DNA of 64,000 nucleotides from contig NZ_PYSY02000002.1 of the NCBI RefSeq assembly GCF_003049685.1, positions 62,001 through 126,000 of the forward strand, read 5' to 3'. Origin of the DNA: Brucella pituitosa. Lineage in GTDB: Bacteria > Pseudomonadota > Alphaproteobacteria > Rhizobiales > Rhizobiaceae. The position numbers and the translations under genes were made by a program. This document shows positions 40,628 to 55,789 of this stretch, piece by piece. Within the stretch, counting starts at the first letter, position 1; each line of letters begins with the position of its first letter. A model generated the notes under the pieces. The model had not been told where the DNA came from. It made no database searches and worked only from the letters and a program-made list of their open reading frames with translations.

Positions 40628-40915
40628 TTACTTGCGCAATTCGGCTTCGATGTCGTCGAAAGCTTTGTCTTTGCCAATGCCGGTCAGGAAGGGGAGACCC
40701 TTGATGACGGGCTTGGTAACAGAAGCCGAAATAGGCGTCGTGGAGACGATGAAATCTACATTGTCGGCAAGAGAAGGAACTTCAGTCGCTTTTGCCTGTT
40801 GGGCATTGAAGGTCAGTCCACGCTTTTTCATTTCTTCGGTAACGGCCGCATTCACTGCCGTAGATGTTGCTACACCTGTGCCGCAAGCGAAGAGAATCGT
40901 TTTCATTTTAGCCAT
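40628..40915 (-). CDS. PTS galactitol-type EIIB
   Basis: A 95-residue cytoplasmic EIIB of the galactitol/pentitol family. The phospho-acceptor cysteine is at the start of the domain (MKTILFACGTGVATSTAV, Cys ~9). GGAGG precedes the ATG at 40915; the frame from 40942 is rejected. It would pass phosphate from the IIA (41024-41485) to the incoming polyol at the IIC. It is the last gene of the leftward IIC-IIA-IIB set. Substrate is not readable from sequence; context suggests a short polyol or deoxyketose. Confidence 0.85.
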   Translation of the reverse strand: MAKMKTILFACGTGVATSTAVNAAVTEEMKKRGLTFNAQQAKATEVPSLADNVDFIVSTTPISASVTKPVIKGLPFLTGIGKDKAFDDIEAELRK

Positions 40916-41023
40916 GGTTTCCTCCAATTGGTGTTCGTGCATTCAATGTAAGGCACAAATATCGTATTTTTTCTTGTCTCGAATTCAGTTGTAAAGACCT
41001 GTTATCCTTAAGACGATTGGTCG

Positions 41024-41485
41024 TTATTGCAGGGCAGTTTCAACGTCCTCAAGCGTGCGCGCAGCCTTCAACCTGTCGAGTGCATCAGCATCCTGAATGG
41101 TTGCCATGATCTGTTGCAAGGTCTCAATCTGTTTGTCCTTGTCATTGATGGCAAGCAGAAACACATATCCAACCGGGACAGTTTCTTCCGGATCTTCCAT
41201 ATTGGCGAACTGGATGGGCGACTTCAACGTCGCGAATGCAATGCCAGCCTTGACCACATGTTCAGGATCGGTGTGAGGAACTGCAACGTTATCGTCGCGC
41301 TCAAGCGGCAATCCGGTTGGCATGGACAGTTCACGGCTGACGACAGCATCGGCGTAGCTTGGCTTTACATAGCCCAGCTTCTCGAGCTTGCCCGCCAATA
41401 TCCGGATAATCTCTTCGTTGGTTTTTGCTTCGCTCTGAAGCTCGATCGCTTGTGGGTCGAGATAATCAATCAGACCAGCAGCCAT
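41024..41485 (-). CDS. PTS EIIA (fructose/galactitol type)
   Basis: A 153-residue PTS_EIIA_2 protein. The phosphorylated His lies in the conserved NVAVPHTDPEHV segment (~70). It accepts phosphate from HPr, most likely from the HPr-EI fusion encoded at 50117-52099. It follows IIC after a strong hairpin and precedes IIB by 108 bp. It is not PtsN: the gene order and galactitol-type IIB/IIC neighbours point to sugar transport. Confidence 0.87.
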   Translation of the reverse strand: MAAGLIDYLDPQAIELQSEAKTNEEIIRILAGKLEKLGYVKPSYADAVVSRELSMPTGLPLERDDNVAVPHTDPEHVVKAGIAFATLKSPIQFANMEDPEETVPVGYVFLLAINDKDKQIETLQQIMATIQDADALDRLKAARTLEDVETALQ

Positions 41486-41500
41486 TCCATTCTCCGTTTG

Positions 41501-41532
41501 AAAAAGGCCGCACGTCGATATCGACGTGCGGC
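41501..41532 (-). terminator. Terminator-like hairpin between the IIC and IIA genes
   Basis: A perfect 26-bp palindrome (13-bp arm GCCGCACGTCGAT and its complement, 41507-41532) is followed, in the direction of transcription, by CTTTTT. It lies inside the operon, 32 bp after the IIC stop and ahead of the IIA start. It could trim transcription into IIA-IIB or protect the upstream message. Confidence 0.65.
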
Positions 41533-41563
41533 TTCGATTATATTGAAAAACTGACAGCCAATA

Positions 41564-42976
41564 TCAGGCAGTCTTTTCTTCCGCAGGTTCATCCTCTGCG
41601 CCCGCCGCACGTTCCCATGCGAGTGTGTTGCGACGATAGAGTATGAACAGCAGCGCAATAACAGCAGCAATGACTGCCACGCCAACCGTACCACCAAGCC
41701 AGCTGATTGTTTTGATGATAATGTCAGGAACCCACAGGAACCCATCAACCACCGAAGTAATCTGCAAGGCATTTTCAGGTAGCTTGAAGCCCGACGATAC
41801 AGCCGCGCTGGTGAACAATGGCGCAAGCGCATTGGCGACATAGAAGCCAATGGCCAGTGTGATGGTTCCAACGACGACCATGCGGAACACGTTTCCTTTC
41901 AGAAGCGGTGCAGTCATGGCGACGATGAACGGAATGACGGCGAGATCGGCGAACAGGATCACGCGGTTACCCGGCAATATGACCGATAGAATGATAGCAA
42001 TCGGTACAAGAATGAGCGCCGACGAGATCGCTGCCGGATGACCGATAAGGATAGCCGAATCGAGGCCGACAAGAAGTTCGCGGTCGCCTGTGCGCTTGCG
42101 TACAAATTCCTGTGCAGCATCAGAAACCGGCAACAGACCTTCCATCAAGATTTTGACCATGCGCGGCAGGAGCAGCATAACCGCTGCCAGCGTCATGCCG
42201 GTGCCCAGAACCTTAGCAAGCACCGTGCCGAAGTCACCCGCGTTATAGAATGCGATAAGACCGAGCACGAGACCTATGATCAGACCCATCACAACCGGCT
42301 CACCAAAAACCCCAAAGCGACGTTCGATGGTTTCGGTGTTGATGTTGATCTTGTTGATGCCGGGGATGCGATCCATGACCCAGTTCAGCACAATCGCGAT
42401 TGGCAGGATCTGTGCGGAAGCCAGATGTGGCACCGAAACACCGGGAATACCATAGAACTGTTGCACAGCGCGCGCCGACCAGTCAGCAAACAGCAGAGAC
42501 AGAGCCGCAACGAGCGCTGCAACAATAATGCCGTAAGCGATGTTATCCGTTGCAGCAACAACCAGCGAGCCAACGAAAGCAAAATGCCAGAAGTTCCAGA
42601 CGTCGACATTCAGCGTACGCGTCCAGCGCATCAGCAGAAGAGCGATGTTGACCAGAATACCAACTGGAATAACCCACAAGCCTACGGATGAACCAAAGGC
42701 AATGGCCGCAGCGGAAGGCCAGCCCACATCGACGATATCGCGCTTGATGCCAGTGTTGGTAACGATTGCCTGAGCCACTTCACCGATAGAGGTGAACATG
42801 AGGCCGAGGACCAGATTGATACCGATGAAAGCGACGCCAATGGTTATGGCTGCACGGAACGCTTTGCCAACCTTTGCCCCAAGTACCACTGCAATAATGA
42901 AAATTACGATAGGCAACAGAACCGTTGCCCCAAGCGTATCGACTGCCGTTTTTAGTCCGCTCAGAAATGCGTCCAT
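41564..42976 (-). CDS. PTS galactitol-type EIIC permease
   Basis: A 470-residue integral membrane permease of the galactitol (EIIC-GAT) family, with about ten or more hydrophobic segments and a GIPGVSVPHLAS-type loop near residue 173. It would carry the sugar alcohol across the inner membrane during phosphorylation by IIB. It is the first gene of the leftward set and is divergent from the DRL-like gene; the shared 279-bp gap holds two copies of a GAACATTTGT motif. Confidence 0.87.
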   Translation of the reverse strand: MDAFLSGLKTAVDTLGATVLLPIVIFIIAVVLGAKVGKAFRAAITIGVAFIGINLVLGLMFTSIGEVAQAIVTNTGIKRDIVDVGWPSAAAIAFGSSVGLWVIPVGILVNIALLLMRWTRTLNVDVWNFWHFAFVGSLVVAATDNIAYGIIVAALVAALSLLFADWSARAVQQFYGIPGVSVPHLASAQILPIAIVLNWVMDRIPGINKININTETIERRFGVFGEPVVMGLIIGLVLGLIAFYNAGDFGTVLAKVLGTGMTLAAVMLLLPRMVKILMEGLLPVSDAAQEFVRKRTGDRELLVGLDSAILIGHPAAISSALILVPIAIILSVILPGNRVILFADLAVIPFIVAMTAPLLKGNVFRMVVVGTITLAIGFYVANALAPLFTSAAVSSGFKLPENALQITSVVDGFLWVPDIIIKTISWLGGTVGVAVIAAVIALLFILYRRNTLAWERAAGAEDEPAEEKTA

Positions 42977-43085
42977 TTATTTCTCCTCCCCCTCGGAACA
43001 CTTCCCAAAGTGCACCGAGCTAACAGAACGTCATTATTAGCTCGCACGTATCGACGTTTCAAAATGTGAACTGGGCGAAACGGCA

Positions 43086-43193
43086 GAACATTTGTATTCT
43101 ATAGCAAACTAAAGTTGAATAACAAGATGGCATTTCGAGGGGGTTGAATGTTGCAGGAAATGAACACTGGTATTGACTTAGAAACAAATGTTC
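43086..43193. promoter_or_regulatory. Divergent control region with inverted GAACATTTGT motifs
   Basis: GAACATTTGT at 43086-43095 and its reverse complement ACAAATGTTC at 43184-43193 sit between the galactitol-type IIC gene and the DRL-like gene. A third copy is at 55034-55043, upstream of gutM. They are candidate sites for the SorC-family regulator encoded at 48012-49031. Confidence 0.5.
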
Positions 43194-43255
43194 ATTAATC
43201 GATAGTGCATCAGAGGAGACTGCGAAAGTTTTGCAGGGACGTTCAGGAGGAAACG

Positions 43256-44575
43256 ATGGCAACCAACGTGGCGTTGACAGGTTTGGCGCGTGATATGCAG
43301 GCGCGGGCGGATAGTGGGCGACCAATTCGCATCGGACTGATTGGCTCTGGCGAAATGGGCACTGATATCGTCACACGCGTTGCGCATATGCCGGGCATCG
43401 AGGTTGGCGCTATTTCTGAACTGCGCGTTCCCAATGCACTTAAGGCCGTGGATATTGCTTTTCAGGAAGAAGGCCATGGCCGCGAGGTTTCGACTGCTTC
43501 CGACCTGACTGCTGCGATGGAAGCGCACAAGGTTGCTGTAACCGACAATGCCAATCTGATCCTCGAAAACGATCTTATCGATGTCGTTATCGATGCAACC
43601 GGCGTTCCGGCTGTGGGGGCTGAAATCGGTCTGCGCGCCATGGAGCATGGCAAGCATCTTGTCATGATGAATGTCGAAGCTGATGTCACCATTGGTGCTT
43701 ATCTGAAAGCCGAAGCTGAACGCCTTGGCGTGACCTATTCGCTTGGTGCAGGCGATGAGCCGTCATCCTGCATGGAGCTGATCGAGTTTGTGACCGCGAT
43801 GGGCCACCCGATTGTGGCCGCGGGCAAGGGCAAGAACAATCCACTCAATATCGACGCGGTTCCTGATCAATATATGGAAGAAGCCACGCGCCGTAATATG
43901 AACGTGCGCATGCTGGTTGAATTCGTCGACGGTTCAAAGACCATGGTCGAAATGGCTGCTATTGCCAACGCCACAGGTCTTGTCCCCGATAAAGCCGGTA
44001 TGCACGGTCCAGCTGCAACGCTCGACCAGCTCAACAAAACCCTGATCCCTGAGAAGGATGGCGGCGTGCTGTCGAAGGTTGGCGTCGTAGATTATTCCAT
44101 CGGCAAAGGCGTTGCGCCGGGCGTGTTTGTTGTCGCCGACATGTCTCATCCGCGTATTTCGGAGCGCATGGAAGATCTGAAGATGGGCAAGGGTCCATAT
44201 TTTACGTTCCATCGCCCTTATCACCTGACTTCCCTTGAAGTGCCGCTCACCTGCGCCCGCGTTGTTCTTTACGGCAAGCCGGACATGGTGCCGCTTTCAA
44301 AGCCAGTCGCCGAAGTGGCGGCCGTTGCAAAGAAGGACATGCAGCCGGGTGAAAAGCTCGATGCGATTGGCGAATATTGCTACCGCGCTTGGATTATGAC
44401 TTCCGGCGAGGCGCGCAGCGCGCATGCGATCCCTTGCGGGTTGTTGCAGGGTGGCAGCGTGACCAAGCCGATCAAAAAAGGCGAACTGATCACTTACGAC
44501 AATGCGGCTGTAGCTCCCGGCTCCAAGATTGCCGAGCTGCGCGCACGTCAGGACAAGCTCGTTTACGGAGCGTGA
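43256..44575 (+). CDS. drl: DXR-like (DRL) 1-deoxy-D-xylulose-5-phosphate reductoisomerase family protein
   Basis: A 439-residue NAD(P)-dependent protein usually mis-annotated as homoserine dehydrogenase. The Rossmann motif IGLIGSGEMGTDIV is near residue 26; the central catalytic segment includes GAGDEPSSCMELIEF and GKGKNNPLN; a C-terminal SAF-type domain spans about residues 340-430. I recognise it from memory as the DRL family first characterised in Brucella abortus, which interconverts DXP and 2-C-methyl-D-erythritol 4-phosphate. Here it heads an operon with acetoin-dehydrogenase-type genes, which suggests a catabolic rather than biosynthetic role. AGGAGG fixes the ATG at 43256. Confidence 0.78.
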   Translation: MATNVALTGLARDMQARADSGRPIRIGLIGSGEMGTDIVTRVAHMPGIEVGAISELRVPNALKAVDIAFQEEGHGREVSTASDLTAAMEAHKVAVTDNANLILENDLIDVVIDATGVPAVGAEIGLRAMEHGKHLVMMNVEADVTIGAYLKAEAERLGVTYSLGAGDEPSSCMELIEFVTAMGHPIVAAGKGKNNPLNIDAVPDQYMEEATRRNMNVRMLVEFVDGSKTMVEMAAIANATGLVPDKAGMHGPAATLDQLNKTLIPEKDGGVLSKVGVVDYSIGKGVAPGVFVVADMSHPRISERMEDLKMGKGPYFTFHRPYHLTSLEVPLTCARVVLYGKPDMVPLSKPVAEVAAVAKKDMQPGEKLDAIGEYCYRAWIMTSGEARSAHAIPCGLLQGGSVTKPIKKGELITYDNAAVAPGSKIAELRARQDKLVYGA

Positions 44576-44587
44576 GGACAAAACATC

Positions 44588-45625
44588 ATGGTTCAAGCCA
44601 AAAAAGTCGAACCGCAGGATACGGGCGACCGTCACAACTTGCCTTATGCTTTCCGCACTTATTCGCCGGAACAGCTGAAAGAAGCACTGCATAAAATGTA
44701 CCTTATCCGCCGCTTTGAAGAAGGCGCGGAAGAAAGCTACACGCGTGGTCTCATTCACGGAACAATGCATCTTTCCATCGGGCAGGAAGCAAGCGCGATG
44801 GGATCGTGCCTGCCTCTTAATGACGATGATATGATCACCTCGACCCATCGTGGTCATGGTCACTGCATCGCCAAGGGTGCGGACGTGAAGCGTATGTTTG
44901 CGGAGTTTTTCGGCAAGGAAACCGGCTATTGCAAAGGCCGTGGCGGTTCGATGCACATCGCCGATGTTTCCAAGGGAAATCTCGGTGCGAACGGTATTGT
45001 CGGCGGCGGCATTCCGATCGCGGTCGGTGCGGCTCTTTCCGCAAAGAAGCAGAAAAACGGTAAGGTTGTCGTGTCGTTCTTTGGCGATGGCGCGAACAAT
45101 GAAGGCGCCTTTCACGAGGCGCTCAATATGGCCGCTGTCTGGAAGTTGCCGGTCGTTTTCATTTGTGAAAACAATGGCTACGGCATGTCCACCTCAACCA
45201 AGCGCTCTACGGCAGTTGCCAATGTTGCTGACCGCGCCTCGGCCTATAACATGCCGGGCGTGATCGTAGACGGCAACAATCTGTCGGAAGTGGCAGAGGC
45301 TGTGAATGAAGCCACCGAACGCGCACGGCGCGGCGATGGGCCTACACTCATTGAAAACAAAACATACCGCATTCGTGGTCATTCCAAGAGCGATCGCAAC
45401 CGCTATCGCACCAAGGAAGAAATAGAGCATTGGCAGAATGATCGCGATCCCATCGCGCATTTTGAGGCCGATTTGAGAGCTTATGGCTTCATCAACGACG
45501 CCGAGATCGAGGCAATCCGCGCTGAGGTGGAAAAGGAAATCGCGGACGCGATTGAATTCGCCAAGAACAGCCCGGCGCCTGATCTGACCAACCTTACCCG
45601 CGACGTTTACACGGACGATATTTGA
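44588..45625 (+). CDS. TPP-dependent dehydrogenase E1 alpha (acetoin dehydrogenase/PDH type)
   Basis: A 345-residue E1 alpha subunit. The thiamine-diphosphate motif is complete ([19 protein letters not shown] to CENNGYG). The [11 protein letters not shown] and RGGSMHIAD segments are typical of AcoA and PdhA. It starts 13 bp after the DRL-like gene with GAGGA upstream and runs into E1 beta. In acetoin dehydrogenase E1 splits a CH3-CO-CHOH bond and passes the acetyl group to a lipoyl arm; DXP has the same CH3-CO-CHOH group. Substrate is inferred. Confidence 0.82.
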
Positions 45626-45627
45626 AC

Positions 45628-46626
45628 ATGGACACGACAATCCGTGAGTTGAGCTATTCGCAAGCCATTCAGGAAGCAATGGCAATTGCCATGGAACGCG
45701 ACGACCGCGTGTTCCTGATGGGTGAAGATATTGGCGTCTATGGCGGCGCATTTCAGGTGACAGGGGATCTGGTGCATCGCTTTGGCGAGGACCGTGTCAT
45801 GGACACCCCGATTTCAGAACTGGGCGGCGCAGGTGTCGCGGTCGGCGCAGCACTGACCGGCATGCGTCCGATTTTCGAATTCCAGTTTTCTGACTTTGCA
45901 GCACTTGCTATGGAGCAGATTGTCAATCAGGCGGCAAAAATCCGCTACATGCTTGGCGGTGCAGTTTCTGTGCCTCTGGTCATGCGTTTTCCGGCAGGTT
46001 CGGGAACGGGTGCAGCAGCACAGCACAGCCAGAGCTTAGAGGCTTGGCTTGGCCATGTTCCGGGTCTCAAGGTTTTGCAGCCCTCGACACCTTATGATGC
46101 CAAGGGCATGTTGCTTGCAGCCGTTGAAGATCCTGATCCGGTTATGATTTTCGAGCACAAGCTGCTTTACAAGACCAAAGGTCCGGTTCCTGAAGGCTTC
46201 TACACCGTGCCAATCGGCAAGGCGGAAGTGGTTCGCGAGGGTCGCGATCTGACCATCGTTGCAACCGCAATCATGGTGCATAAAGCTCTTGATGCTGCCG
46301 CTGAACTTGCCAAGGAAGGCATTGATGTTGAAGTGATCGATCTGCGCACCGTGCGTCCGATTGATCGCGAAACCATCATTAAAAGCGTCAAGAAGACGTC
46401 CAAGCTCCTCTGCGTTTATGAAGCGGTCAAGACCCTTGGCATCGGTGCTGAAATCTCCGCAATCGTCGCGGAAAGCGATGCTTTTGATTACCTCGATGCA
46501 CCGATTGTGCGTCTGGGCGGAGCTGAAACGCCAATTCCTTATAATCCTGATCTTGAACGCGCGACCGTTCCGCAGGTGCCTGATATCCTGAAAAGCGCTC
46601 GTGATCTGGCCAAAGGAGTGCGCTGA
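45628..46626 (+). CDS. TPP-dependent dehydrogenase E1 beta (acetoin dehydrogenase/PDH type)
   Basis: A 332-residue transketolase-like E1 beta subunit with the expected pyrimidine-binding and C-terminal domains ([15 protein letters not shown] near residue 33, [12 protein letters not shown] near residue 235). The ATG lies two bases after the E1 alpha stop, so translation is probably coupled. It forms a heterotetramer with the E1 alpha. E2-like gene follows after 2 bp. Confidence 0.84.
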
Positions 46627-46628
46627 CC

Positions 46629-47945
46629 ATGGCTGTGGAAGTCATTCTCCCCAAGGTCGATATGGATATGGAGACGGGGCAGATTTCGCGCTGGTATGCC
46701 AAGGATGGCGATACCGTCACGAAGGGCCAGCTTCTCTTTGAAATTGAGACTGACAAGGCGGCGATGGAAGTCGACGCTCCGGCATCAGGCATCATTGCGG
46801 ATATCAGTGCCGCAGAAGGCGCCGTTGTCCCGGTTGGGCAGACAGTCGCCTGGATTTACGACGAAGGTGAAGAGCGTAATGCCAAGTCACCGCCCGTCGT
46901 TGAAGAGCCAATTGCTGCTGCGCCCGTCGAAACTATCATTGAGACGGTAGCACCAAAACCGGTTGAACCAAAATCCTCCCAGGACGATAAAAATGGTTCA
47001 GCAGATGATGTGCGGGCAACACCGCTTGCACGTCGGCTTGCACGTGAAGCAGGCATTGATCTGACCAGCATTCAGGGCTCAGGTCCGAAGGGTCGCGTGC
47101 AGAAAAAGGATGTTGAAGGCGATATTGCGGTATCGGCTAAATCGCCTGCGATTAAAAATGCTGAACCATCTGCGCCCGAACAGCTTAATGCAGTCTGGTT
47201 GCGTGAGGGCGAGGCCGATCGGTTGCCGATTGTGCTGATCCACGGCTTTGCCGCGGACCTCAACTCATGGCGTGGCTTGTTTGCCGGGGCATCGCTTGGC
47301 CACCCGATACTGGCGCTTGATCTTCCGGGACACGGCAATTCACCACGTGTCGTTCCTGAAAGCATCGATGACATTGCCGCTGCCGTTGAAGCGACGCTTT
47401 CTGCTTTCGGTGTGACATCGTGCCTGTTGGTCGGTCACTCGCTTGGTGGAGCCGTCGCCACAGTCACCGCTGCGCGTGGCGTTGTCGATGTGCGTTCCCT
47501 GCTGCTTATTTCTTCGGGTGGCTTAGGACCGCAGGTCAATGGTGCGTTCATAAAGGGTCTTGTCGGCGCGAAAAGCGAAGCCAGCATCGTTCCCTGGTTG
47601 AAACTGCTCGTTGCCGATGAGAGCCATCTGACGAAGCCGTTCATCAATGCAACGGTTGCTCAGGCTGCTGATACAGAACTGCGCGATACGCAGGAAGCGA
47701 TTGGTCATCGGCTTTTTGCGGATGGCACACAGACTTTTGAGGTTCGTTCAAGCATTGCCTCGCTTGCAATGCCGGTACGGCTCATCTTCGGTGCCGAAGA
47801 TCGGGTCATTCCCGCGTCTCAAGCCCATGGGTTGCCGGGGAAGGTGGGAGTCCACATTTTCGCAGGTTGTGGACATATGCCACAAATTGAAGAGCGGGCT
47901 GCGGTGTTGCAAATTCTCAAAGAATGCGCCGCCGCTGCCAATTAA
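46629..47945 (+). CDS. Lipoyl-E3-binding-alpha/beta hydrolase fusion (AcoC-like E2)
   Basis: A 438-residue three-part protein. Residues ~1-78 are a lipoyl domain with the modified lysine in EIETDKAAMEV. Residues ~135-175 are a peripheral-subunit-binding domain (ATPLARRLAREAGIDL, GPKGRVQKKDV). Residues ~195-438 are an alpha/beta hydrolase with oxyanion IHGFAADLNSW, nucleophile GHSLGG, acid FGAEDRVIP and His AGCGHMPQ. The normal E2 acyltransferase domain is absent, as in acetoin dehydrogenase AcoC. It would accept the two-carbon unit from E1. No E3 (lipoamide dehydrogenase) is encoded nearby. Confidence 0.85.
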   Translation: MAVEVILPKVDMDMETGQISRWYAKDGDTVTKGQLLFEIETDKAAMEVDAPASGIIADISAAEGAVVPVGQTVAWIYDEGEERNAKSPPVVEEPIAAAPVETIIETVAPKPVEPKSSQDDKNGSADDVRATPLARRLAREAGIDLTSIQGSGPKGRVQKKDVEGDIAVSAKSPAIKNAEPSAPEQLNAVWLREGEADRLPIVLIHGFAADLNSWRGLFAGASLGHPILALDLPGHGNSPRVVPESIDDIAAAVEATLSAFGVTSCLLVGHSLGGAVATVTAARGVVDVRSLLLISSGGLGPQVNGAFIKGLVGAKSEASIVPWLKLLVADESHLTKPFINATVAQAADTELRDTQEAIGHRLFADGTQTFEVRSSIASLAMPVRLIFGAEDRVIPASQAHGLPGKVGVHIFAGCGHMPQIEERAAVLQILKECAAAAN

Positions 47946-47964
47946 CACCAGCCTAAAGCAATTT

Positions 47965-47998
47965 AAAAAGCACATCGTTTTGCGACGATGTGCTTTTT
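47965..47998. terminator. Bidirectional terminator between the E2-like and SorC genes
   Basis: A perfect 14-bp stem AAAAAGCACATCGT / ACGATGTGCTTTTT with a TTTGCG loop, between two convergent genes. Confidence 0.88.
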
Positions 47999-48011
47999 GG
48001 TTTTAGCCTTA

Positions 48012-49031
48012 TTAAGCCCTGTCTTTCAGCATCTGTGCCGCACTTTCTTCATCGGTGATGAGAACGGTGGGTTTCAGGAGCTCGATTGCGCCAAGCAGGG
48101 CGGCAATCTTCTCTTTGCCGCCGGATGTCAAAATGCGCTGAGGCGTTTTCTGAAGGCTCTCGATCTTGGCTGACATGACACGATCATGCACCGGATCATC
48201 GACGATCTTGCCGTTGATATCATAGAAGTGGAACAGCACGTCGCCGACGGCACCATTTTCGATGAGCGATATTTTCTGCTGCTCATCAATGAGGCCCACA
48301 CGATAAGACGTGCTGCTGGCCGTCTGAATATCACCGACGCTGAGCAGAACCATGTCCAGTTCTTCGGCCATATCCAGTACGGTATTCAATCCACAACGTT
48401 CGATAAGAGCGATCCGCGTTTCCTTGCTATCAACCAACGCAGGGGCGGGGATCAGATAACCTTCACCCTGAAAAATCTGTGCAAACTGCCACGCAAATTC
48501 CGGCGGATTTGAACGACGTGGCTGCACGATGCCGCCGAGCAGGGAGATGACTTTCAAGTCATTGAGCGGGCGCGCACCGATATGTTGAAGCGTGCTGGAA
48601 AGAGTACGCCCCCAGCCGACGCCAATCGTCATGCCGTGCTGCACCTTTTCCGACAGATAGGCGCCTGTTGCTGCACTGATCGGCGGAATTGGATCAATGT
48701 CGGATGACGAGAGCGGCGCGACAATCGCCCGTTCCAGACCAAAGGTCTTTTCAAGCTCTACTTCGAGTGCAGTTAGACTTGCCAGCTTGCCTTCGATGGT
48801 AATTTTTACTTCATTGCGAGCACGGGCATCAGCAAGAAGGCGCACGATTGTGACACGGCCGACACCGAGCGCTTCTGCGATGTCATTCTGAGTCATTTGT
48901 TCGACGTAATACATCCACGCGGCACGCGTTCTCAACCGGCTCGTGCGGTTTTCGGCGGCAACGCCTTCCGATCCAATGATGAGGTCAGCTGTCTCCGGAT
49001 TCTTTTGCGTCTTCTTGCCAGCTTTTTTCAA
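48012..49031 (-). CDS. SorC/DeoR-family sugar-binding transcriptional regulator
   Basis: A 339-residue SorC-type regulator. An N-terminal HTH (YVEQMTQNDIAEALGVGRVTIVRLL, around residues 42-66, shown as family marker MTQNDIAEALGVGRVT) precedes a ~270-residue sugar-phosphate-binding domain (GVGWGRTLSSTL, SVGDIQTASST). SorC proteins respond to phosphorylated sugars, consistent with control of PTS-linked genes. It lies between the DRL/dehydrogenase operon and the glucitol-type PTS operon and may regulate both. It is preceded by a hypothetical gene read the other way. Confidence 0.82.
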   Translation of the reverse strand: MKKAGKKTQKNPETADLIIGSEGVAAENRTSRLRTRAAWMYYVEQMTQNDIAEALGVGRVTIVRLLADARARNEVKITIEGKLASLTALEVELEKTFGLERAIVAPLSSSDIDPIPPISAATGAYLSEKVQHGMTIGVGWGRTLSSTLQHIGARPLNDLKVISLLGGIVQPRRSNPPEFAWQFAQIFQGEGYLIPAPALVDSKETRIALIERCGLNTVLDMAEELDMVLLSVGDIQTASSTSYRVGLIDEQQKISLIENGAVGDVLFHFYDINGKIVDDPVHDRVMSAKIESLQKTPQRILTSGGKEKIAALLGAIELLKPTVLITDEESAAQMLKDRA

Positions 49032-49178
49032 AATAATCCCTCAAATTATTGGCGCAATACTGCTTTATAGAAGTGATACTCTTAAAGCGAACCTATTGCT
49101 TTTCCACGTGAAGGCAAACAATAATTCATGTGCTCTGTCCAGGCTGTTCCGGTGGCGCTTCGGTTAAGGAAAATGAAC

Positions 49179-49964
49179 ATGCTACGCATTCTTTCGGAAG
49201 AAATTGCAGTCAATCTGAAGGACCGTTTGCGCGAGGTTCGATACATGATTCGTCGCAATCGTCATGAAAGTTTGCAGGGCGAACAGGCCTCTTCGCGTCC
49301 GGGTGAAATCGTGTCACCGGAACTGCTGCTGGGACATGCCGCGAGCATGATGGACAAGGCACTGACGACGGCTGAAACAATCTCCATTTCGCTGATTTCA
49401 TCGAACCCGAATGTTCATAACAGTGCGCCGCATGTGAGAAGCTTGTCGGTCTATTTTGGCGCTGGAGCTGAGGGTGCGCGCGCGTTCCGCAAGGATATGT
49501 ATTATCTGACGAAGGAGGTACTTCGTCGCAACCAGCTGCAGAATGTGTTGATCCAGGAGGCTGTGTTCGTCACGGTGCATGCAAAAGTAATGCGCAAGCA
49601 TGGGGCTTTGTTGAAGGGCGTGTTCGCTGCAGAAGCGGGTGACAAAAAAATCAATGAAACTGCCAAGGCCATCGCGGCCATGTTTCTCGAGCTTCTTGCG
49701 GAAAAGCCGGTTCGTTTTATCTCACTTGATGGCCATTGTGATCCGCAGGCTTTGCGTAAATTCGAAACGATGTGTTTCGCTGCTGTTGGCCTGGCGTGCG
49801 GACTGGCGACAGCCAAAGCTGGCGATCTGGAGGGAGTTGACCCGCTCGAGAGTGCCATTCTGGCTTTGGATGCACGGCATGAGCGTCTGATGCAGGCTGC
49901 TGAAGATCGGGATCAGTCGCAGCTCGAAAATCTGTTCCAGACTTTTATCGCCCACCTGCCATAA
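49179..49964 (+). CDS. Hypothetical helical protein, possible regulator
   Basis: An unrecognised protein of ~261 residues, predicted mostly alpha-helical. It has no signal peptide or membrane segment. The frame opens at 49128; AAGGA is spaced best for the ATG at 49179. It begins near the SorC gene in the opposite direction and ends 17 bp before a dispersed repeat. A C-terminal DUF-like helical domain with LDARHERLMQAAEDRDQSQL is visible. Its position between two parts of the PTS/DRL region suggests a link, but no function can be named. Confidence 0.6.
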   Translation: MLRILSEEIAVNLKDRLREVRYMIRRNRHESLQGEQASSRPGEIVSPELLLGHAASMMDKALTTAETISISLISSNPNVHNSAPHVRSLSVYFGAGAEGARAFRKDMYYLTKEVLRRNQLQNVLIQEAVFVTVHAKVMRKHGALLKGVFAAEAGDKKINETAKAIAAMFLELLAEKPVRFISLDGHCDPQALRKFETMCFAAVGLACGLATAKAGDLEGVDPLESAILALDARHERLMQAAEDRDQSQLENLFQTFIAHLP

Positions 49965-49980
49965 AGAAAAACCCGGATGT

Positions 49981-50076
49981 TAGAGCACCGATCTGATTCA
50001 ATCAGATCGGTGCTCTAACTGTTTGTTTGACGCGTATCTTATCCGAAAACCGCTTTACACTTTTCGGGATGCGCTA
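49981..50076. repeat. RIME1/Bru-RS-like palindromic repeat, copy 3
   Basis: A 96-bp element. The left half is a palindrome TAGAGCACCGATCTGATT / AATCAGATCGGTGCTCTA; the right half contains ATCCGAAAACCG and CACTTTTCGGGAT. It lies between a rightward hypothetical gene and the leftward HPr-EI gene. Confidence 0.8.
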
Positions 50077-50116
50077 CAATATCCGGGCTTAATGTAAAAG
50101 CATATTAGGCGACGCC

Positions 50117-52099
50117 CTAGTTTCCCAACATATCCGTGATCGTCTTTTTTGCACGCGGAATTGAAGCCGGGCTCATGCTGAGTTCCGTCAGCCCCATGCG
50201 CAGAAACTCTCCAATAAGTTCCGGCTTACCTGCGGCTTCTCCGCACATGCCCACCATGATGCCTGCTTCAGTGCCCGCCTTTGCGGTCATCTCAATTGCT
50301 GCCATTACAGCCGGATGGCTTACATCGTTGAGCTTTGCAACAGTCGGATTGAGCCGATCTGCGGCCATCACATATTGCGTGAGATCGTTGGTGCCGATGG
50401 AGAAGAAAGCCGCTTCTTTTGCAAGTTCGCGGGCTGCAAAAACCGCCGCCGGCGTCTCGATCATCACGCCAAGGTCGAACTCGGCGAAAGCTTTATCTTC
50501 GCTTTTAAGTTCGCTGATGCATTCTGCGATCAGTCGTTTGGTTGCGCGAATTTCTTCGACATCCGAGACCATCGGCAACATCACCTTGAGATTGCCGTTG
50601 ACAGCTGAGCGCAACAAGGCGCGCAACTGCGGCTTGAATACATCCAAACGATCCAGACACATGCGAATGCCGCGCCAGCCAAGGAACGGGTTTTCTTCCT
50701 CGGGAAACTCGATGCCCGCAATGGGCTTGTCGCCACCGATATCGAGCGTTCGGACAATAACCGAATGTGGTGCAAATGCTTTGAGAAGTGCTGAATAGGT
50801 TTCGGTCTGCATATCTTCGGACGGCAGATGAATGTGCTTCATGAAGAGAAGCTCAGTACGGAAAAGACCAACACCCATGGCGCCGGCTTCGAGCGCGACG
50901 TCGATCTCTTCAAGCGCACCCATATTGGCCGCAACTTCGATAATGGTTCCGTCGGCGCGTCGAGGAATTATCGAGCGGTAAGCATCAAGTGCCTGCTTTT
51001 CCTGCAACGCAGCAGCAATGCGTGTTTCGATTTCGTTGCAGGTGGCCGCATCCGGGTCAGAATGGACGATGCCGCTACTACCATCAACAGCAACGATTTT
51101 AGCGTTTTTAAGCTGTTGAACAGCGCTTCCAAGTCCCAGGACGGCAGGTATGCCATGCGTGCGGGCGATGATCGCAACATGCGATGTGGCGCCGCCATGT
51201 CCGCAGACGACGCCTTTGATTTTCTTGAGCGGAGCTCTTGCTAAATCCCAAGCACCAATGTCGTCGGCGATAAGTACGGACCCTGCGGGCAAACCTTCCA
51301 GATTAATGTCTTCTTTGCCCAGAAGGGCAAGGCAAATTTGTCGGCTGACGGCATGCACATCGTCTGCGCGTGCATTGAGATAAGGGTCGTCAAGTGCCGC
51401 AAACTGCCCGGCAACTGTGGATGCTGCTCCCAGCATTGCTGAAATTGCATCCATGCCCCCGCGAATAAGCGAGATAGCTTCTTCTGTCAGGCTGTCATCA
51501 GCCGCAATATCTTTTAATGCAGCAATAATGCCGCGATCTGTATCCGCAAGGTTTCCGGTGGCGAGCGATTCATCCATGCGTTGTTGCACGGTTGCGATTG
51601 CCGATTTGAAATGGGCAATTTCTGCGTCAATTTCAGAAGCTGCAAGCTTCCGACCGAGCGGCTTGATTTCTTCGGGGAAGAATGGAAATGCCGTGCCTAA
51701 AGAAATGCCTTCGCTTGCGCCGACGCCCTTTATTTGTCCATCGGGTAGCTTCGCGATTGTTGCTGCTTGAGCGACTGGCGCAGTTTTGGGTTCGGTGTCT
51801 GGTGCCGGGATTGAAGGTGTCTCAACATTGCTTTCTTCAAGGCCAGCCTGTGGGTTTTCAAGATATCCGATCAGCGCTTCGATTGCTTCAATGGCATCAG
51901 CTCCATCGGCGCGCACTGTGACTTCGTCAAGCTCTTTAACGCCAAGAAGCATCAGTTTGACGGAGCTTTTGGCACTTACGCTTTTTCCGGCCTTGGCGAT
52001 TTCGATGTCGCTTTCAAAACCTTTGGCCAGTTTAACGAAGCGGGTGGCTGGGCGTGCATGCAGCCCTTCATGCACCCGGACAATGGTCGAGCGTTCCAT
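50117..52099 (-). CDS. HPr-Enzyme I fusion phosphotransferase (sugar PTS)
   Basis: A 660-residue cytoplasmic protein. Residues ~1-90 are an HPr domain with the active His in HEGLHARPATRF; a proline/alanine-rich linker follows to about residue 120. Residues ~120-660 are Enzyme I, with the phospho-His in CGHGGATSHVAIIARTHG, PEP-site motifs GLFRTELLFM, GGDKPIAG, NPFLGWRGIR, and a catalytic Cys in GMCGEAAGKPE. It would take phosphate from PEP and feed the IIA proteins here. No GAF or PTS-Ntr sensor domain is present, so it is not PtsP. It is the last gene of the glucitol-type operon. Confidence 0.9.
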   Translation of the reverse strand: MERSTIVRVHEGLHARPATRFVKLAKGFESDIEIAKAGKSVSAKSSVKLMLLGVKELDEVTVRADGADAIEAIEALIGYLENPQAGLEESNVETPSIPAPDTEPKTAPVAQAATIAKLPDGQIKGVGASEGISLGTAFPFFPEEIKPLGRKLAASEIDAEIAHFKSAIATVQQRMDESLATGNLADTDRGIIAALKDIAADDSLTEEAISLIRGGMDAISAMLGAASTVAGQFAALDDPYLNARADDVHAVSRQICLALLGKEDINLEGLPAGSVLIADDIGAWDLARAPLKKIKGVVCGHGGATSHVAIIARTHGIPAVLGLGSAVQQLKNAKIVAVDGSSGIVHSDPDAATCNEIETRIAAALQEKQALDAYRSIIPRRADGTIIEVAANMGALEEIDVALEAGAMGVGLFRTELLFMKHIHLPSEDMQTETYSALLKAFAPHSVIVRTLDIGGDKPIAGIEFPEEENPFLGWRGIRMCLDRLDVFKPQLRALLRSAVNGNLKVMLPMVSDVEEIRATKRLIAECISELKSEDKAFAEFDLGVMIETPAAVFAARELAKEAAFFSIGTNDLTQYVMAADRLNPTVAKLNDVSHPAVMAAIEMTAKAGTEAGIMVGMCGEAAGKPELIGEFLRMGLTELSMSPASIPRAKKTITDMLGN

Positions 52100-52207
52100 T
52101 TATGTAAGCCTCAAAGCGACATCTGAAACATTCCGACATCTTGTTTGCCGGAAACTGTTCCAATCATCTGTTTTAACACGTAATTCTGACGGCAGATTTG
52201 ACGATTT

Positions 52208-52588
52208 TTAGCCGCCAATAATGATAATCTGGCCTTCTTTCAGGGCAGAAACAAGCTCTTCACCGGCTATTTCAGTTGCGCAAATTTCGCCCGGGCGGTC
52301 TGTAGACTGTGCGCCCGTAAACGAAATAACGACGTGACCGATTTCGCGTACTTTTTGCCAGGCGCTATCGCCGACAGCAGTGATTTCTGCGTTGAGTGAA
52401 CCGATGGTGATGCGGGCTCCGACAGCAGGTGCGGAGGCTTCAGGTCCTTCTTCCACGGCATGCATTACGGATACTTCTGCGAGTTCGGGTGGAGACCCAT
52501 CTGCAAACAGAATGAGAACGCCGCCTTCGGCGAGATCCGCAACTTCCGGGCCGATCGCGGTAATCCGCGTTTTCAGATGTATCGACAT
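52208..52588 (-). CDS. PTS glucitol/sorbitol-type EIIA
   Basis: A 126-residue EIIA of the GUT family (SrlB-like), starting MSIHLKTRITAIG. The expected active-site region around the N-terminal third (LADGSPPELAEVSVMH, short family marker ELAEVSVMH with His ~45) is present. AAAGGA precedes the ATG at 52588; the frame from 52660 is rejected. It sits between the IIB and HPr-EI genes. Confidence 0.85.
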   Translation of the reverse strand: MSIHLKTRITAIGPEVADLAEGGVLILFADGSPPELAEVSVMHAVEEGPEASAPAVGARITIGSLNAEITAVGDSAWQKVREIGHVVISFTGAQSTDRPGEICATEIAGEELVSALKEGQIIIIGG

Positions 52589-52708
52589 AGAGGCGGTCCT
52601 TTCTTGATATGGTCGTTCGATGCTCAGGAAAATTGATCGGGGAGCATTGTTATTGCACATGTTTGGGAGATTACCTGCCGCCGCTTTTGCTGCGGCAGGC
52701 TGAGAGTT

Positions 52709-53695
52709 TTAAAGCACTGCGAGGCTGACTACCCAGGCGATCAGAACCGACAGAGGACCCATGATCTGACGGCTGATCAGAACAGCAGGAACACCAATTT
52801 CGATTGTCTTGGGTTTAGCTTCACCTAGCGCCAGACCAACCGGAACGAAGTCGCAACCGACCTGTGTGTTGTAGGCAAATAGCGCAGGCAGGGCCATGGC
52901 TGGAGCGATGGTGCCGTTGGCGATCTGCGGTCCGATGATTGCCACGCCGACGACCTGCGCGATAACTGCACCCGGTCCGAGAATCGGCGACAGGAACGGC
53001 AAGCCGCAAATTGCCGAAAGCACCAGCAAGCCGACAATGTTATTGGCTAGCGGTCCAAGCGGCTGAGCGAGAATGTCGCCAATGCCTGTATAGAGGATCA
53101 GGCCGATCAGCATCGTCACGAATGCCATGAACGGCAAGACGTTACGAATGACCTGATCGATCGTGCGACGTCCGGCCTGGAAGAAAATACCAACGACACG
53201 GCCCATGACACGGCCGATACTGCTGATAAATCCGACAATACCGCCTTCGCTTGGCAGTTCTACCGGAGCAGGCGTTTCTTCTTCTGCGGTTGCTGCAGCA
53301 GGAGCTGCGGCGGCCGAGCCGTCAGCCGGAACGATGTTTTCCGGCTTCACACCCGACACATAGATGTCTTCCGTAATGAATTGTGCCAGTGGTCCGGACT
53401 GCCCAACTGGTGTGATGTTTACTGTTGGAATGCGCTTGCGCGGATAGACGCCGCAACGGGCAGTACCGCCGCAATCGACAACCACGACTGCCATTTCGCT
53501 TTCAATCGGTGGTGAGCGAAAGCCATCAACGGCTTCTGCGCCAGTGAGTTCAGCGATCTGGCGCGCAAGCGGATGAATGCCGCCGCCCGTGACGGATACA
53601 ACTTTGCTGCGCTGCTCAGTCGGTTGAATAACAAGCGGGCCGCCCCAGCCGTTGGAGCCGCGGGAAATCTTAACTGCCTTATAGGTCTTTACCAT
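52709..53695 (-). CDS. PTS glucitol/sorbitol-type EIIB(C) (SrlE-like)
   Basis: A 328-residue protein. The N-terminal EIIB domain carries the phosphorylated Cys in CGGTARCGVYPRKRIP (~82). After an Ala/Glu-rich linker (~residues 127-145) comes a membrane domain with about four to five hydrophobic segments (residues ~175-328), as in SrlE. GGGGAGGA precedes the ATG. It partners the IIC encoded just upstream. Confidence 0.88.
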   Translation of the reverse strand: MVKTYKAVKISRGSNGWGGPLVIQPTEQRSKVVSVTGGGIHPLARQIAELTGAEAVDGFRSPPIESEMAVVVVDCGGTARCGVYPRKRIPTVNITPVGQSGPLAQFITEDIYVSGVKPENIVPADGSAAAAPAAATAEEETPAPVELPSEGGIVGFISSIGRVMGRVVGIFFQAGRRTIDQVIRNVLPFMAFVTMLIGLILYTGIGDILAQPLGPLANNIVGLLVLSAICGLPFLSPILGPGAVIAQVVGVAIIGPQIANGTIAPAMALPALFAYNTQVGCDFVPVGLALGEAKPKTIEIGVPAVLISRQIMGPLSVLIAWVVSLAVL

Positions 53696-53716
53696 GTCGT
53701 CCTCCCCAATTCCCGC

Positions 53717-54502
53717 TTAAAGCTCAATGCCCTGACGCCGCGCCATGATGGCGGTGATGCGTTCAGTGAGCATGCCTTTAAGGAGGATCACGACGAGACC
53801 CACGATTGCGTACCAGATTGCCACGTTGATGTGATAACCCGTTGGAACTGCGCCCTTCTTTTCCAGTTCAAGAAGTGCGACGAGAATGCCACCCCAGACG
53901 AAATATTCGCCCGGATTGATGTGCGGGAAGAGACCCAGCGGCGGATGGACATAGGAAACAGCCGCGTCATAGAAAGCGGGCTTGTATTTCTCGTCGAGGA
54001 ACGAACCAAATGTATAAGCCATCGGGTTGGTCAGGAAGAAGACCGCAAGAACCGGCAGAACCGTATAACGGGTGAGCGCGATACGTCCAGCGCTGCGTGC
54101 GAGGCCATGGACGCGCTTTTCGCCGACCAATTCGGTTACGGCATAGAACGCAGTCATCAGCACGACGAGTGTCGGGATAATGCCAGTTACAAACCCTGCA
54201 AAAACTTCGCCGCCCTTCTGGAAAACGCCAATGAAGTGCTTGCCGATCGAGGCAAGCCAGCCGAGCTGTTCTTCCTGCTGGACGTTTTGAAGGCGTTCCT
54301 TGAACTGATCAACGGTAATTCCGCTGCTGCCGGCATCGGCAGGCGCGGTAGTTGTTGCTTGTGCAAGCTGCAGAAGATCATTTCCCGCGTGCTCTGCGGC
54401 ATGCTTGCCATGCAGGGCCGCATCGGAAATCATGCTGCCAGCCATATGTATAGATTGCATTGTTACGTCGGCATGTTGTGCCAACATCGTCACTATCGAC
54501 AT
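53717..54502 (-). CDS. PTS glucitol/sorbitol-type EIIC (SrlA-like)
   Basis: A ~261-residue membrane permease of the glucitol family. It is longer at the N-terminus than E. coli SrlA: residues ~1-80 are a soluble, His-containing stretch before the family core (GEVFAGFVTGIIPTLVVLMTAF, short marker FVTGIIPTLVVLMTA). GGAGGAG precedes the ATG at 54502; a TTG at 54532 would add ten residues and is less likely. It lies between gutM and the IIB gene. Confidence 0.86.
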   Translation of the reverse strand: MSIVTMLAQHADVTMQSIHMAGSMISDAALHGKHAAEHAGNDLLQLAQATTTAPADAGSSGITVDQFKERLQNVQQEEQLGWLASIGKHFIGVFQKGGEVFAGFVTGIIPTLVVLMTAFYAVTELVGEKRVHGLARSAGRIALTRYTVLPVLAVFFLTNPMAYTFGSFLDEKYKPAFYDAAVSYVHPPLGLFPHINPGEYFVWGGILVALLELEKKGAVPTGYHINVAIWYAIVGLVVILLKGMLTERITAIMARRQGIEL

Positions 54503-54539
54503 TACTCCTCCTCGATTGCTTGTTTCAGGCAAGCAACTC

Positions 54540-54971
54540 CTATGCTCCCACTGCCTTCAGACCTTCGAGTTCGAGCCCATCGGACTGATCTCTTATGCGG
54601 CCGATCTGTTCGATCGCCTGCGTGGCAGCAGCCACCACTTCAGGCGTGCCTTCTATGATCGTGGGATTGTTCTGCAATTCGCTGAGGCGCATTCCCTCGA
54701 AGCCTTCGCGGCGGCTGAATTTTGCAAAAACCGTCCGACCGCTCATTTGCAGGAAGCGGCGCACCACCAAATTGCGATCGACGACGAGCAACACAATGAC
54801 GCCTCTGCCGAAGCGGCCTCGCACATGGCCCGCGCCGACAAAGCCGTCAGAATATTTCGAGGTGATACCTTTCATCACATCGGAATAGTGGCGCATCTGA
54901 AACCAAACGCCCAGAGACTGAAAGCCCCAAAGCAAGGCGAGCGCCAGCAAAGCCCATTGCCAGATAGCCAT
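54540..54971 (-). CDS. gutM: GutM-like glucitol operon activator
   Basis: A 143-residue protein with one N-terminal membrane segment (QWALLALALLWGFQSLGVWF) and a GutM-family soluble domain (GFVGAGHVRGRFGRGVIVLLVVD). GutM accompanies SrlAEB genes in sorbitol operons and acts as an activator there. GGGAGGAG precedes the ATG. It is the first gene of the leftward operon gutM-IIC-IIB-IIA-HPr/EI, with a GAACATTTGT motif 63 bp upstream. Confidence 0.85.
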   Translation of the reverse strand: MAIWQWALLALALLWGFQSLGVWFQMRHYSDVMKGITSKYSDGFVGAGHVRGRFGRGVIVLLVVDRNLVVRRFLQMSGRTVFAKFSRREGFEGMRLSELQNNPTIIEGTPEVVAAATQAIEQIGRIRDQSDGLELEGLKAVGA

Positions 54972-55033
54972 TTTGTTCTCCTCCCACGAAGGGTGAGCCG
55001 GATATTACTCAAGCTCACCTTTCGTCAATTAGA

Positions 55034-55043
55034 GAACATTTGT
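55034..55043. promoter_or_regulatory. GAACATTTGT motif upstream of gutM
   Basis: Exact third copy of the motif found twice between the galactitol-type IIC and DRL-like genes. Nearby TCAATA sequence is also shared with the 43184-43193 site. Candidate SorC operator linking the two gene blocks. Confidence 0.45.
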
Positions 55044-55153: not shown

Positions 55154-55789
55154 ATGGACTTGCTACTCAGAGAACAAATGGCATCGATGCCAGATTTGCG
55201 CCATCGGTTGCGCCAGCTGCGTTGGTTCAGGGCGACGTTCCGTAAACATGCGAGCTTGCTGCATGAGCTTTATGGCGTCGAATATGAGATTGACGAAAAG
55301 AAGCTCACAGAAGCCTTCTTGAACTGGGTAGAGCTCGTTGATCAGAACAAGCGTTTTGCCAAAGTGGACCGCAAAGACTTCATCACCTTTGCCGCAGGTC
55401 TTGTGTTGCGAGAGCTGATCCGTTTGTCGCCTGCGAAGGTCGTTTCACCACCAAAGCACGCGTCTGACGATGCTGCGCGTCTTTACGAAATCGTCAGCTT
55501 CTGGCCAGAAGGTTTTCTTTACACAAACTACTGTATCTGCGCGATTGCTGCTGTGCAGGAGCAGGAATTCGGCACGGTTCCAGATATCGACCAATGCGCC
55601 GATGAATTGCGAACGTGGTGGTCTTACAAGGAAAACGTCTCGGAAATGCCGGGCTATGCGATAGCATTTCTTGATAAGTTTCTTGGTAGCGAGCCAAACT
55701 GGGTCATGCCCGACCTCGCTTCGGCGCGCGCTGCCGTTAAACGTGCGCTTGGCGAAAATAATCCCGTGACGAAGATTCAAAACACGTAG
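55154..55789 (+). CDS. Hypothetical conserved protein
   Basis: An unrecognised 211-residue soluble protein, divergent from gutM. It has no signal peptide or membrane span. The sequence is rich in helices, with a basic N-terminal part (LRHRLRQLRWFRATFRKH, ~residues 15-32) and a Trp-rich C-terminal half (RTWWSYKENVSEMPG). GGGAGG lies ahead of the ATG. Because it shares a promoter region with the glucitol-type PTS operon, it might be co-regulated, but I cannot assign a role. Confidence 0.6.
   Translation: MDLLLREQMASMPDLRHRLRQLRWFRATFRKHASLLHELYGVEYEIDEKKLTEAFLNWVELVDQNKRFAKVDRKDFITFAAGLVLRELIRLSPAKVVSPPKHASDDAARLYEIVSFWPEGFLYTNYCICAIAAVQEQEFGTVPDIDQCADELRTWWSYKENVSEMPGYAIAFLDKFLGSEPNWVMPDLASARAAVKRALGENNPVTKIQNT

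Follow-up and report, generated by a model that had tools for sequence, protein, structure and literature searches.

The window analysed here, a stretch of 64,000 nucleotides of Brucella pituitosa (contig NZ_PYSY02000002.1), holds at positions 40628-55789 a block of genes encoding two sugar phosphotransferase systems (PTS), a paralogue of the type II 1-deoxy-D-xylulose 5-phosphate reductoisomerase (DXR-II, also called DRL), the E1-alpha, E1-beta and E2 components of a thiamine diphosphate (TPP)-dependent dehydrogenase, and a SorC-family regulator. The sequence comparisons point with considerable confidence to a regulon for the use of 2-C-methyl-D-erythritol (ME), and probably also 1-deoxy-D-xylulose (DX), as carbon source. 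In the proposed pathway the glucitol-family PTS, fed by an HPr-Enzyme I fusion, would import ME as 2-C-methyl-D-erythritol 4-phosphate (MEP), and the galactitol-family PTS would import a second related substrate, perhaps DX as 1-deoxy-D-xylulose 5-phosphate (DXP). The DXR-II paralogue, the identity of which is well supported, would then oxidize and rearrange MEP to DXP, the reverse of the biosynthetic reaction. The E1 and E2 components together with the cell's own E3 would cleave DXP with thiamine diphosphate, the acetyl unit passing to lipoate and on to CoA, with acetyl-CoA, NADH and glyceraldehyde 3-phosphate as the products; this oxidative cleavage would pull the preceding step forward. The SorC-family regulator, going by its family, would respond to a sugar phosphate. 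From the gene identities, linkage, clade structure and shared operator described below we infer the substrates, the direction of the DXR-II step, the ligand of the regulator and the role of the second PTS; as natural substrate, ME, DX or a close stereoisomer would all fit the data.

Acetoin-type dehydrogenases cleave compounds of the form CH3-CO-CHOH-R to acetyl-CoA and R-CHO, and DXP fits this form with glyceraldehyde 3-phosphate as R-CHO. By the title of a 1986 report by Yokota and Sasajima, pyruvate and acetoin dehydrogenases are said to form 1-deoxyketoses; xylulokinase, likewise by title, reportedly phosphorylates deoxyxylulose, and the sorbitol PTS is said, by the title of a 2004 report by Testa, to import methylerythritol into Salmonella. 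Mutations in aceE, encoding the E1 component of pyruvate dehydrogenase, let Escherichia coli without DXS make DXP, according to a further report (PMC3424233). The acetoin-type cleavage chemistry together with these precedents thus argues for a path from ME through MEP and DXP to acetyl-CoA and glyceraldehyde 3-phosphate. Such a catabolic route had been proposed in the first-pass annotation of the window, and it is strengthened by the identity of the DXR-II, by a separate E1 subfamily linked to DXR-II, by the common operator and by a precedent, by title, for each step. The same annotation held that no pathway of this form had been described; a search of the open-access literature, with subscription journals outside its scope, found no paper on catabolism of ME or DX and no description of this gene combination, of this direction of DXR-II or of a DXP-cleaving activity.

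Linkage of the dehydrogenase with DXR-II was surveyed in a family sample of 394 genomes, with the E1-alpha type of the window called at E <= 1e-110. DXR-II was found in 244 genomes and the E1-alpha type in 72, and in 66 of the latter DXR-II stands directly 5' of E1-alpha (59 by listed coordinates and 7 by fetched stretches). The remaining six comprise three E1-alpha genes at contig ends (G554, G668, G584) and three non-adjacent cases. Of the 72 genomes with the E1-alpha type, 70 have DXR-II, versus 174 of the 322 without it (Fisher p = 2e-14, kinship not corrected). The clustering of the two genes exceeds chance, and the genome-neighbourhood survey that the first-pass annotation had put forward as a check thus found them together. 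Among the named loci, which are the best 80 of 582 DXR-II matches and mainly Mesorhizobium, E1-alpha lies within 500 bases of DXR-II in 66. A Mantel test over 88 distinct pairs shows the distances among E1-alpha and among DXR-II sequences to be correlated (r 0.689, with 0 of 999 permutations as high). Members of one E1 clade occur with either of two DXR-II subfamilies, which are about 85-100% and 54-57% like the window DRL; the second of these accompanies the clade in Terrarubrum, Pseudoroseomonas, Paracoccus and six further genomes. A class-wide sample of 385 genomes yielded DXR-II (E<=1e-90) in 3 and the E1-alpha type in 1, the window's own; no E1 was found in the fetched part of the other two DXR-II stretches. 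The module is accessory within the genus and often plasmid-borne.

In the E1-alpha tree, for which 45 rows were kept of 97 distinct, all 35 DRL-linked rows fall together (clade support 100/98). Outside this clade are the acetoin-operon rows L162 and L166, which stand beside 2,3-butanediol dehydrogenase genes, the pyruvate-type rows of the window's own genome (L158) and of Burkholderia (L165), and the FGGY-type rows L159, L160 and L164; nearest to it, with weak support (86/39), are rows from Priestia and from a C. difficile plasmid. The DRL-linked E1 appears to be a separate subfamily that travels with DXR-II, and cleavage of DXP is its proposed activity. Residues H57 and T59 of E1-alpha are invariant in the DRL-linked rows and beyond these are confined to the rows of Priestia and C. 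difficile, T59 aligning with a phenylalanine of human pyruvate dehydrogenase. Q88 and S90 of E1-beta, replacing M and F of the human enzyme, are invariant in the same way and occur otherwise only in Priestia. All four residues presumably line the active site, going by the human enzyme. A lysine in the GHSKSD stretch of E1-alpha was dropped as a mark of the clade, with arginine found there in other E1 rows. The E1-alpha misses the pyruvate dehydrogenase models TIGR03182, just under the cut-off (391.2 bits against 393.85), and TIGR03181 (266.6 against 411.35), and the E2 passes the NCBIfam acetoin E2 model NF011457 (445.6 bits, cut-off 307). Since other DRL-E1 loci carry an ordinary PF00198-type E2 instead, the AcoC-type E2 is not diagnostic and was dropped as a mark of the system.

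Two related gene clusters were seen outside the DRL-linked set. On C. difficile plasmid NZ_CP149712.1 (L163) the genes for a SorC regulator, E1-alpha, E1-beta, E2 and lpdA are consecutive, with a PTS nearby; the stretch has no annotated DXR-II gene, and its E1-alpha is the row noted above as a weakly supported neighbour of the DRL-linked clade. Just left of the window, which spans C2:62001-126000 of its genome (G000), is (L176, G000:C2:46000-61000) a second acetoin-type E1/E2 cluster without DXR-II, which also encodes an ABC sugar importer, an FGGY pentulose-type kinase and two short-chain dehydrogenases. The same type of cluster was found in Rhizobium hidalgonense (L164). The L176 cluster may degrade another 1-deoxyketose.

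The window DRL matches the Brucella DRL structures 3UPL and 3UPY with E ~1e-216 and is 75.1% identical to 3UPL. All ten key residues checked are present (K191, K193, T229, R320, E174, F178, Y322, G121, H250 and V351, in the numbering of the Brucella enzyme and as named in PMC3847144). These residues and its place in the DXR-II part of the tree put the protein encoded from 43259 inside DXR-II, as the first-pass annotation had supposed. Brucella tritici and B. pseudogrignonensis each have a DRL matching that of the window at 100%. A second DXR-II copy is present in the window genome (C1:1956861), and since this copy is 93.5% identical to 3UPL it is the counterpart of the proven Brucella enzyme and likely the biosynthetic copy of the genome. 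The core copy is present in all 24 genomes of the genus (in 3 of them in pieces only), and the window-type copy is full-length in 15 of the 24 and broken in one more. DXR-I (PF02670) was not found in the window genome, nor in 33 of the 35 related genomes searched. Additional functional DXR-II paralogues are carried by Ochrobactrum anthropi and Mesorhizobium loti, as PMC3847144 states citing earlier work; which paralogue of these species is the E1-linked copy we infer.

Two genomes, G061 (= G682, 99% complete) and G067 (= G525, 100% complete), have a single DXR-II each, the copy before E1-alpha; IspF is present in both, and DXR-I and HMG-CoA reductase were not found in the searches. Because the operon-type DXR-II is the sole DXR in these genomes, with IspF and without DXR-I or HMG-CoA reductase, it probably must make MEP there, suggesting that an enzyme of the operon type probably retains MEP as product or substrate. 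The E1-linked and solo copies of five Phyllobacterium genomes are 99.5, 97.9, 98.9, 99.1 and 99.8% identical and are sister rows in the tree in four of the five, as expected if both catalyse the same reaction. The two copies of two Pseudochrobactrum-type genomes are just 88.6 and 86.8% alike. Solo Phyllobacterium copies were seen at L043-L046, L051, L056, L060, L111 and L112, and the two that are annotated (L111, L112) are flanked by a sugar ABC importer and, at the opposite end, by kynA/kynU.

The divergent gatC and drl operons and the gut operon share an operator core, GAACATTTGT, the gatC-drl and gutM promoters of the window giving a 15/16 match. Exact copies of the core number three in the window, all in the gat/drl and gut intergenic stretches (mean of 200 shuffles, 0.095). 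When loci were scanned for the core, allowing up to one mismatch and a site no more than 350 bases upstream of the gene or in its first 15 bases, it was found before DXR-II in 78 of 83 loci also holding an E1-alpha match (shuffled promoters, 0.9), before gutM in 35 of 35 (0.8) and before gatC in 11 of 12 (0.2). The flanking half, which was not used in choosing the sites, is also conserved, as GTCAAtACgAATGTtCA at drl (28 promoters) and as TGTCAATATGTATAAT, ending in a -10-like box, at gutM (18 promoters), the flanks of the two sets being otherwise different. At the loci with an ABC importer and a PfkB kinase, the core lies between the importer operon and the regulator gene in two of three (L116 and L118; not L114). 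Since the drl and gut operons share the core, import and enzymes belong to one regulon, and the SorC-family regulator probably binds the GAACATTTGT operator, judged by its family and position. An RbsABC-type ABC transporter to the right of the block (56359-60160) was considered as a further member and is unsupported, having no exact core.

The provision for import and phosphorylation varies among the loci. PTS versions were found in the window, Rhizobium L51/94, Terrarubrum and Pseudoroseomonas. An ABC importer and a PfkB kinase take the place of the PTS in Agrobacterium CFBP7129, S. meliloti Rm41 and Rhizobium N324, the first two loci also carrying lpdA and lipA; the Rm41 locus is on plasmid pRM41A. 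A Priestia plasmid encodes E1-alpha, E1-beta, E2, lpdA, a major facilitator superfamily (MFS) importer, DXR-II, an FGGY kinase and a Gut PTS. Kinases of both types, FGGY and PfkB, score under all NCBIfam cut-offs, their best models being pentulose kinases and ribokinase-type kinases. Thus, phosphorylation is kept and its means differ, being a PTS, an ABC importer with PfkB kinase or, in Priestia, an FGGY kinase with Gut PTS. Among the 66 E1-linked named loci, 27 have a Gut or Gat PTS and one a PfkB kinase like that of Agrobacterium. Downstream of the DRL-E1 operon at L114, L116 and L117 are genes for a GlpD-like dehydrogenase and a zinc-type alcohol dehydrogenase, which possibly act on a related polyol phosphate. 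On the plasmid of Rhizobium sp. L51/94 (L113) the DRL-E1 block is directly followed by thiC, thiO, thiS, thiazole synthase, thiE-type and thiD genes; DXP is a thiamine precursor and E1 needs thiamine diphosphate.

Several results weigh against an ME regulon of this form. Biosynthetic DXR favours the formation of MEP. The linkage counts overstate the evidence because related genomes are not independent. The operator motif came from a comparison between two promoters that both belong to the block, and with one mismatch allowed the core is not enriched across the window (4 found, 5.35 expected). Since the sites were chosen by the core, its conservation is built in, leaving the flanking half as the only unbiased sign; the gatC count (11 of 12) is for the most part not independent because the Brucellaceae gatC and drl are divergent and share the same sites; and of 28 loci with no E1-alpha match, 6 also have the core before DXR-II (shuffled promoters, 0.6). 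The PTS names denote family rather than substrate because the subunits scanned score under the NCBIfam specificity cut-offs, namely galactitol IIB (44 bits against 95), IIA (58.9 against 139) and IIC (441.5 against 542.2) and glucitol IIA (63.5 against 189.55), the sole Gut subunit scanned against NCBIfam. In 38 of the 66 E1-linked named loci the examined stretch, which in many ends at a contig end, holds neither PTS nor PfkB; at L048, one of the 38, genes for a SorC-type regulator and an ABC importer follow downstream. In Listeria (L148) and Ligilactobacillus salivarius (L153) DXR-II stands beside a Gut PTS, GutM and a SorC-type regulator and there is no E1, so that another enzyme must use the product. 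An aldolase gene stands near in both (tagatose-bisphosphate aldolase in L148; fructose-6-phosphate aldolase, with transketolase, in L153), and for this reason an aldolase might use DXP there. Finally, since the L176 cluster has an importer and a kinase without DXR-II, such E1/E2 complexes can serve other ketoses.

Of the rivals, the one that deserves most weight, although it is unlikely, is that the chemistry is as proposed and the main substrate is another, such as DX, a stereoisomeric methyltetrol or another 1-deoxyketose, with DXR-II only feeding isoprenoid synthesis or playing a side role. A pentulose-type FGGY kinase beside DXR-II in Priestia and Mesorhizobium (L174) fits deoxyxylulose, and three Phyllobacterium genomes (G721, G521, G765) have the E1-E2-Gut block without an adjacent DXR-II and one DXR-II elsewhere, which also speaks against the pathway as drawn. 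However, DXR-II would be needless for DXP arriving as such, yet it heads the operon in 66 of 72 genomes, and the partner PTS is of the glucitol family, reportedly the ME importer in Salmonella.

It is highly improbable that an acetoin or acetoin-like dehydrogenase operon came by chance to lie next to a spare biosynthetic DXR-II. The E2 scores above the acetoin cut-off, and a zinc-type alcohol dehydrogenase lies some 6 to 10 kb off in three annotated DRL-E1 loci. However, the E2 is replaced by the PF00198 type elsewhere, the DRL-linked E1-alphas group by themselves, with the two rows linked to butanediol dehydrogenase falling outside their clade, no butanediol dehydrogenase or acetoin reductase is named in the annotated DRL-E1 loci examined, and the adjacency and common operator recur across many genera. 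The E1 tree and the gene partners led to the rejection of acetoin catabolism as the sole role, and the adjacency to that of a spare biosynthetic DXR-II placed there by chance. Equally little credence is given to a module for isoprenoid supply, in which imported DX or ME would be salvaged through DXR-II and the E1/E2 complex would serve as overflow valve for DXP. Because DXR-I is missing from 33 of the 35 genomes searched, DXR-II is biosynthetic in these lineages, in keeping with such a module; against it, the window genome has a second DXR-II nearer to the proven enzyme, and the module is accessory in the genus and often on plasmids. Catabolism of ME is accordingly preferred as the role of the block.

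The genes named in the first-pass annotation were all recovered, with reading frames and domains where it had placed them; GutM, proteins of 278 and 211 amino acids and the common operator were added. The block runs from the Gat PTS (minus strand) through DRL, E1-alpha, E1-beta and E2 (plus strand, gaps nil or nearly nil) to SorC, the 278-residue protein, HPr-Enzyme I, the Gut PTS with GutM and the 211-residue protein. The glucitol/sorbitol PTS matches the Pfam families of IIA, IIBC and IIC, and the SorC-type regulator falls under the LsrR equivalog cut-off (126.1 bits against 486). Eleven distinct homologues of the 278-residue protein were found, beside the block in Brucellaceae, Pseudochrobactrum and Phyllobacterium loci. 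The 211-residue protein has invariant FWPEG and WW motifs in its homologues and accompanies the module in both the PTS and the ABC-kinase versions (homologues in L038, L082, L114, L116, L118, L152 and others).

Features of the block, with positions numbered from the first nucleotide of the window.
Feature	Position	Strand	Evidence or remark
Galactitol-family PTS IIB	40628..40942	-	Pfam PTS_IIB 39.4 bits, cut-off 23.6
Galactitol-family PTS IIA	41024..41485	-	Pfam PTS_EIIA_2 116 bits
Galactitol-family PTS IIC	41564..42976	-	Pfam EIIC-GAT 293 bits; NCBIfam EIIC-GAT 441.5, under cut-off 542.2
Operator core GAACATTTGT between divergent gatC and drl operons	43086..43095	+	Exact match
Second GAACATTTGT core, gatC-drl intergenic stretch, 75 bases before drl	43184..43193	-	Exact match; conserved half GTCAAtACgAATGTtCA beside it
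DXR-II/DRL paralogue	43259..44575	+	Pfam DRL_cat (PF21135) 227.5 bits, cut-off 27; PDB 3UPL E=1.3e-216
TPP-dependent dehydrogenase E1-alpha	44588..45625	+	Pfam E1_dh 317.7 bits
E1-beta	45622..46626	+	Pfam Transket_pyr and Transketolase_C
AcoC-type E2	46629..47945	+	Lipoyl, E3-binding and alpha/beta-hydrolase domains; PF00198 unmatched
SorC-family sugar-binding regulator	48012..49031	-	Pfam Sugar-bind (PF04198) 187.9 bits, cut-off 27
278-residue protein without Pfam match	49128..49964	+	Between SorC regulator and HPr-Enzyme I genes
HPr-Enzyme I fusion, PTS phosphoryl donor	50117..52099	-	PTS-HPr and PEP-utilizer domains
Glucitol-family PTS IIA	52208..52660	-	Pfam PTSIIA_gutA 99.3 bits
Glucitol-family PTS IIBC	52709..53695	-	Pfam EIIBC-GUT_N and EIIBC-GUT_C
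Glucitol-family PTS IIC	53717..54532	-	Pfam EII-GUT 212 bits
GutM	54540..54971	-	Pfam GutM 93.4 bits
GAACATTTGT core before gut operon	55034..55043	+	Exact match
211-residue protein, no Pfam family above cut-off	55154..55789	+	Alignment of 22 homologues

If the reading is true, the block encodes the first catabolic route for MEP-pathway intermediates, and its DXP-cleaving dehydrogenase has a new activity. Plants make methylerythritol derivatives. The 2-methyltetrols of aerosol, 2-methylerythritol among them, averaged 376 ng per cubic metre at one site and made up 3.8% of the organic aerosol mass there (PMC6145830). ME, a sugar alcohol of five carbons that derives from plants and isoprene, is thus not exotic as a substrate. 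The retention of DXR-II by bacteria that possess DXR-I as well is posed as an open question in PMC3847144, which further reports DXR-II in Finegoldia and Anaerococcus, without the rest of both isoprenoid pathways. A catabolic role, if true, answers why DXR-II persists where isoprenoids do not need it, and warns against labelling every DXR-II gene as isoprenoid synthesis. A Gut PTS beside DXR-II recurs in Listeria and Ligilactobacillus, two Gram-positive genera without a nearby E1 in the loci examined. It is conceivable, with the balance leaning somewhat against it, that a dedicated, widespread and horizontally mobile bacterial pathway consumes MEP-pathway intermediates (ME and DX from plants, microbes and isoprene-derived aerosol) by running DXR-II in reverse into a new DXP-cleaving dehydrogenase, and that DXR-II began as a catabolic enzyme, was kept in bacteria with DXR-I or without the MEP pathway, and later took the place of DXR-I in Brucella, Bartonella and Mesorhizobium. 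The E1-linked rows of the DXR-II tree branch below as well as above the solo biosynthetic rows, a position that fits a catabolic origin and is no proof of it.

Each part of the block belongs to a known family, and in kind the block falls among the sugar-polyol catabolic regulons with a TPP dehydrogenase. The Brucella DXR-II (3UPL, 3UPY) is of the same family as the window paralogue, with the checked catalytic and substrate residues in common and 75.1% identity; unlike it, the window paralogue is part of a regulon for sugar uptake that also includes a TPP dehydrogenase, and the direction proposed for it is towards DXP. Acetoin dehydrogenase (AcoABC) has in common with the window the E1-alpha/E1-beta layout, the AcoC-type E2 and the cleavage chemistry, whereas the window E1 is in a separate clade and its partners are sugar importers, SorC regulators and DXR-II rather than butanediol dehydrogenase and AcoR. 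The sorbitol PTS of Salmonella, of the glucitol family like the window Gut PTS, is said by the title of the report by Testa to import methylerythritol, and reportedly delivers it phosphorylated to MEP; that system feeds isoprenoid synthesis in mutants, whereas the window system would feed carbon catabolism. Catabolism of autoinducer 2 (AI-2) by Lsr has a SorC-type regulator and a phosphorylated 1-deoxypentose derivative and yields acetyl-CoA and triose phosphate. The window proposal shares with Lsr the type of regulator, phosphorylation of a 1-deoxypentose derivative and the types of product; Lsr differs in its import, in having no DXR-II and in acetyl transfer by LsrF instead of a TPP complex. 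EryABCD of Brucella and rhizobia oxidizes a C4 polyol phosphate and feeds it to central metabolism. The pathway proposed here would likewise oxidize a polyol phosphate to feed central metabolism, in the same bacterial group, and EryABCD differs from it in having no branched carbon, no DXR-II and no TPP dehydrogenase.

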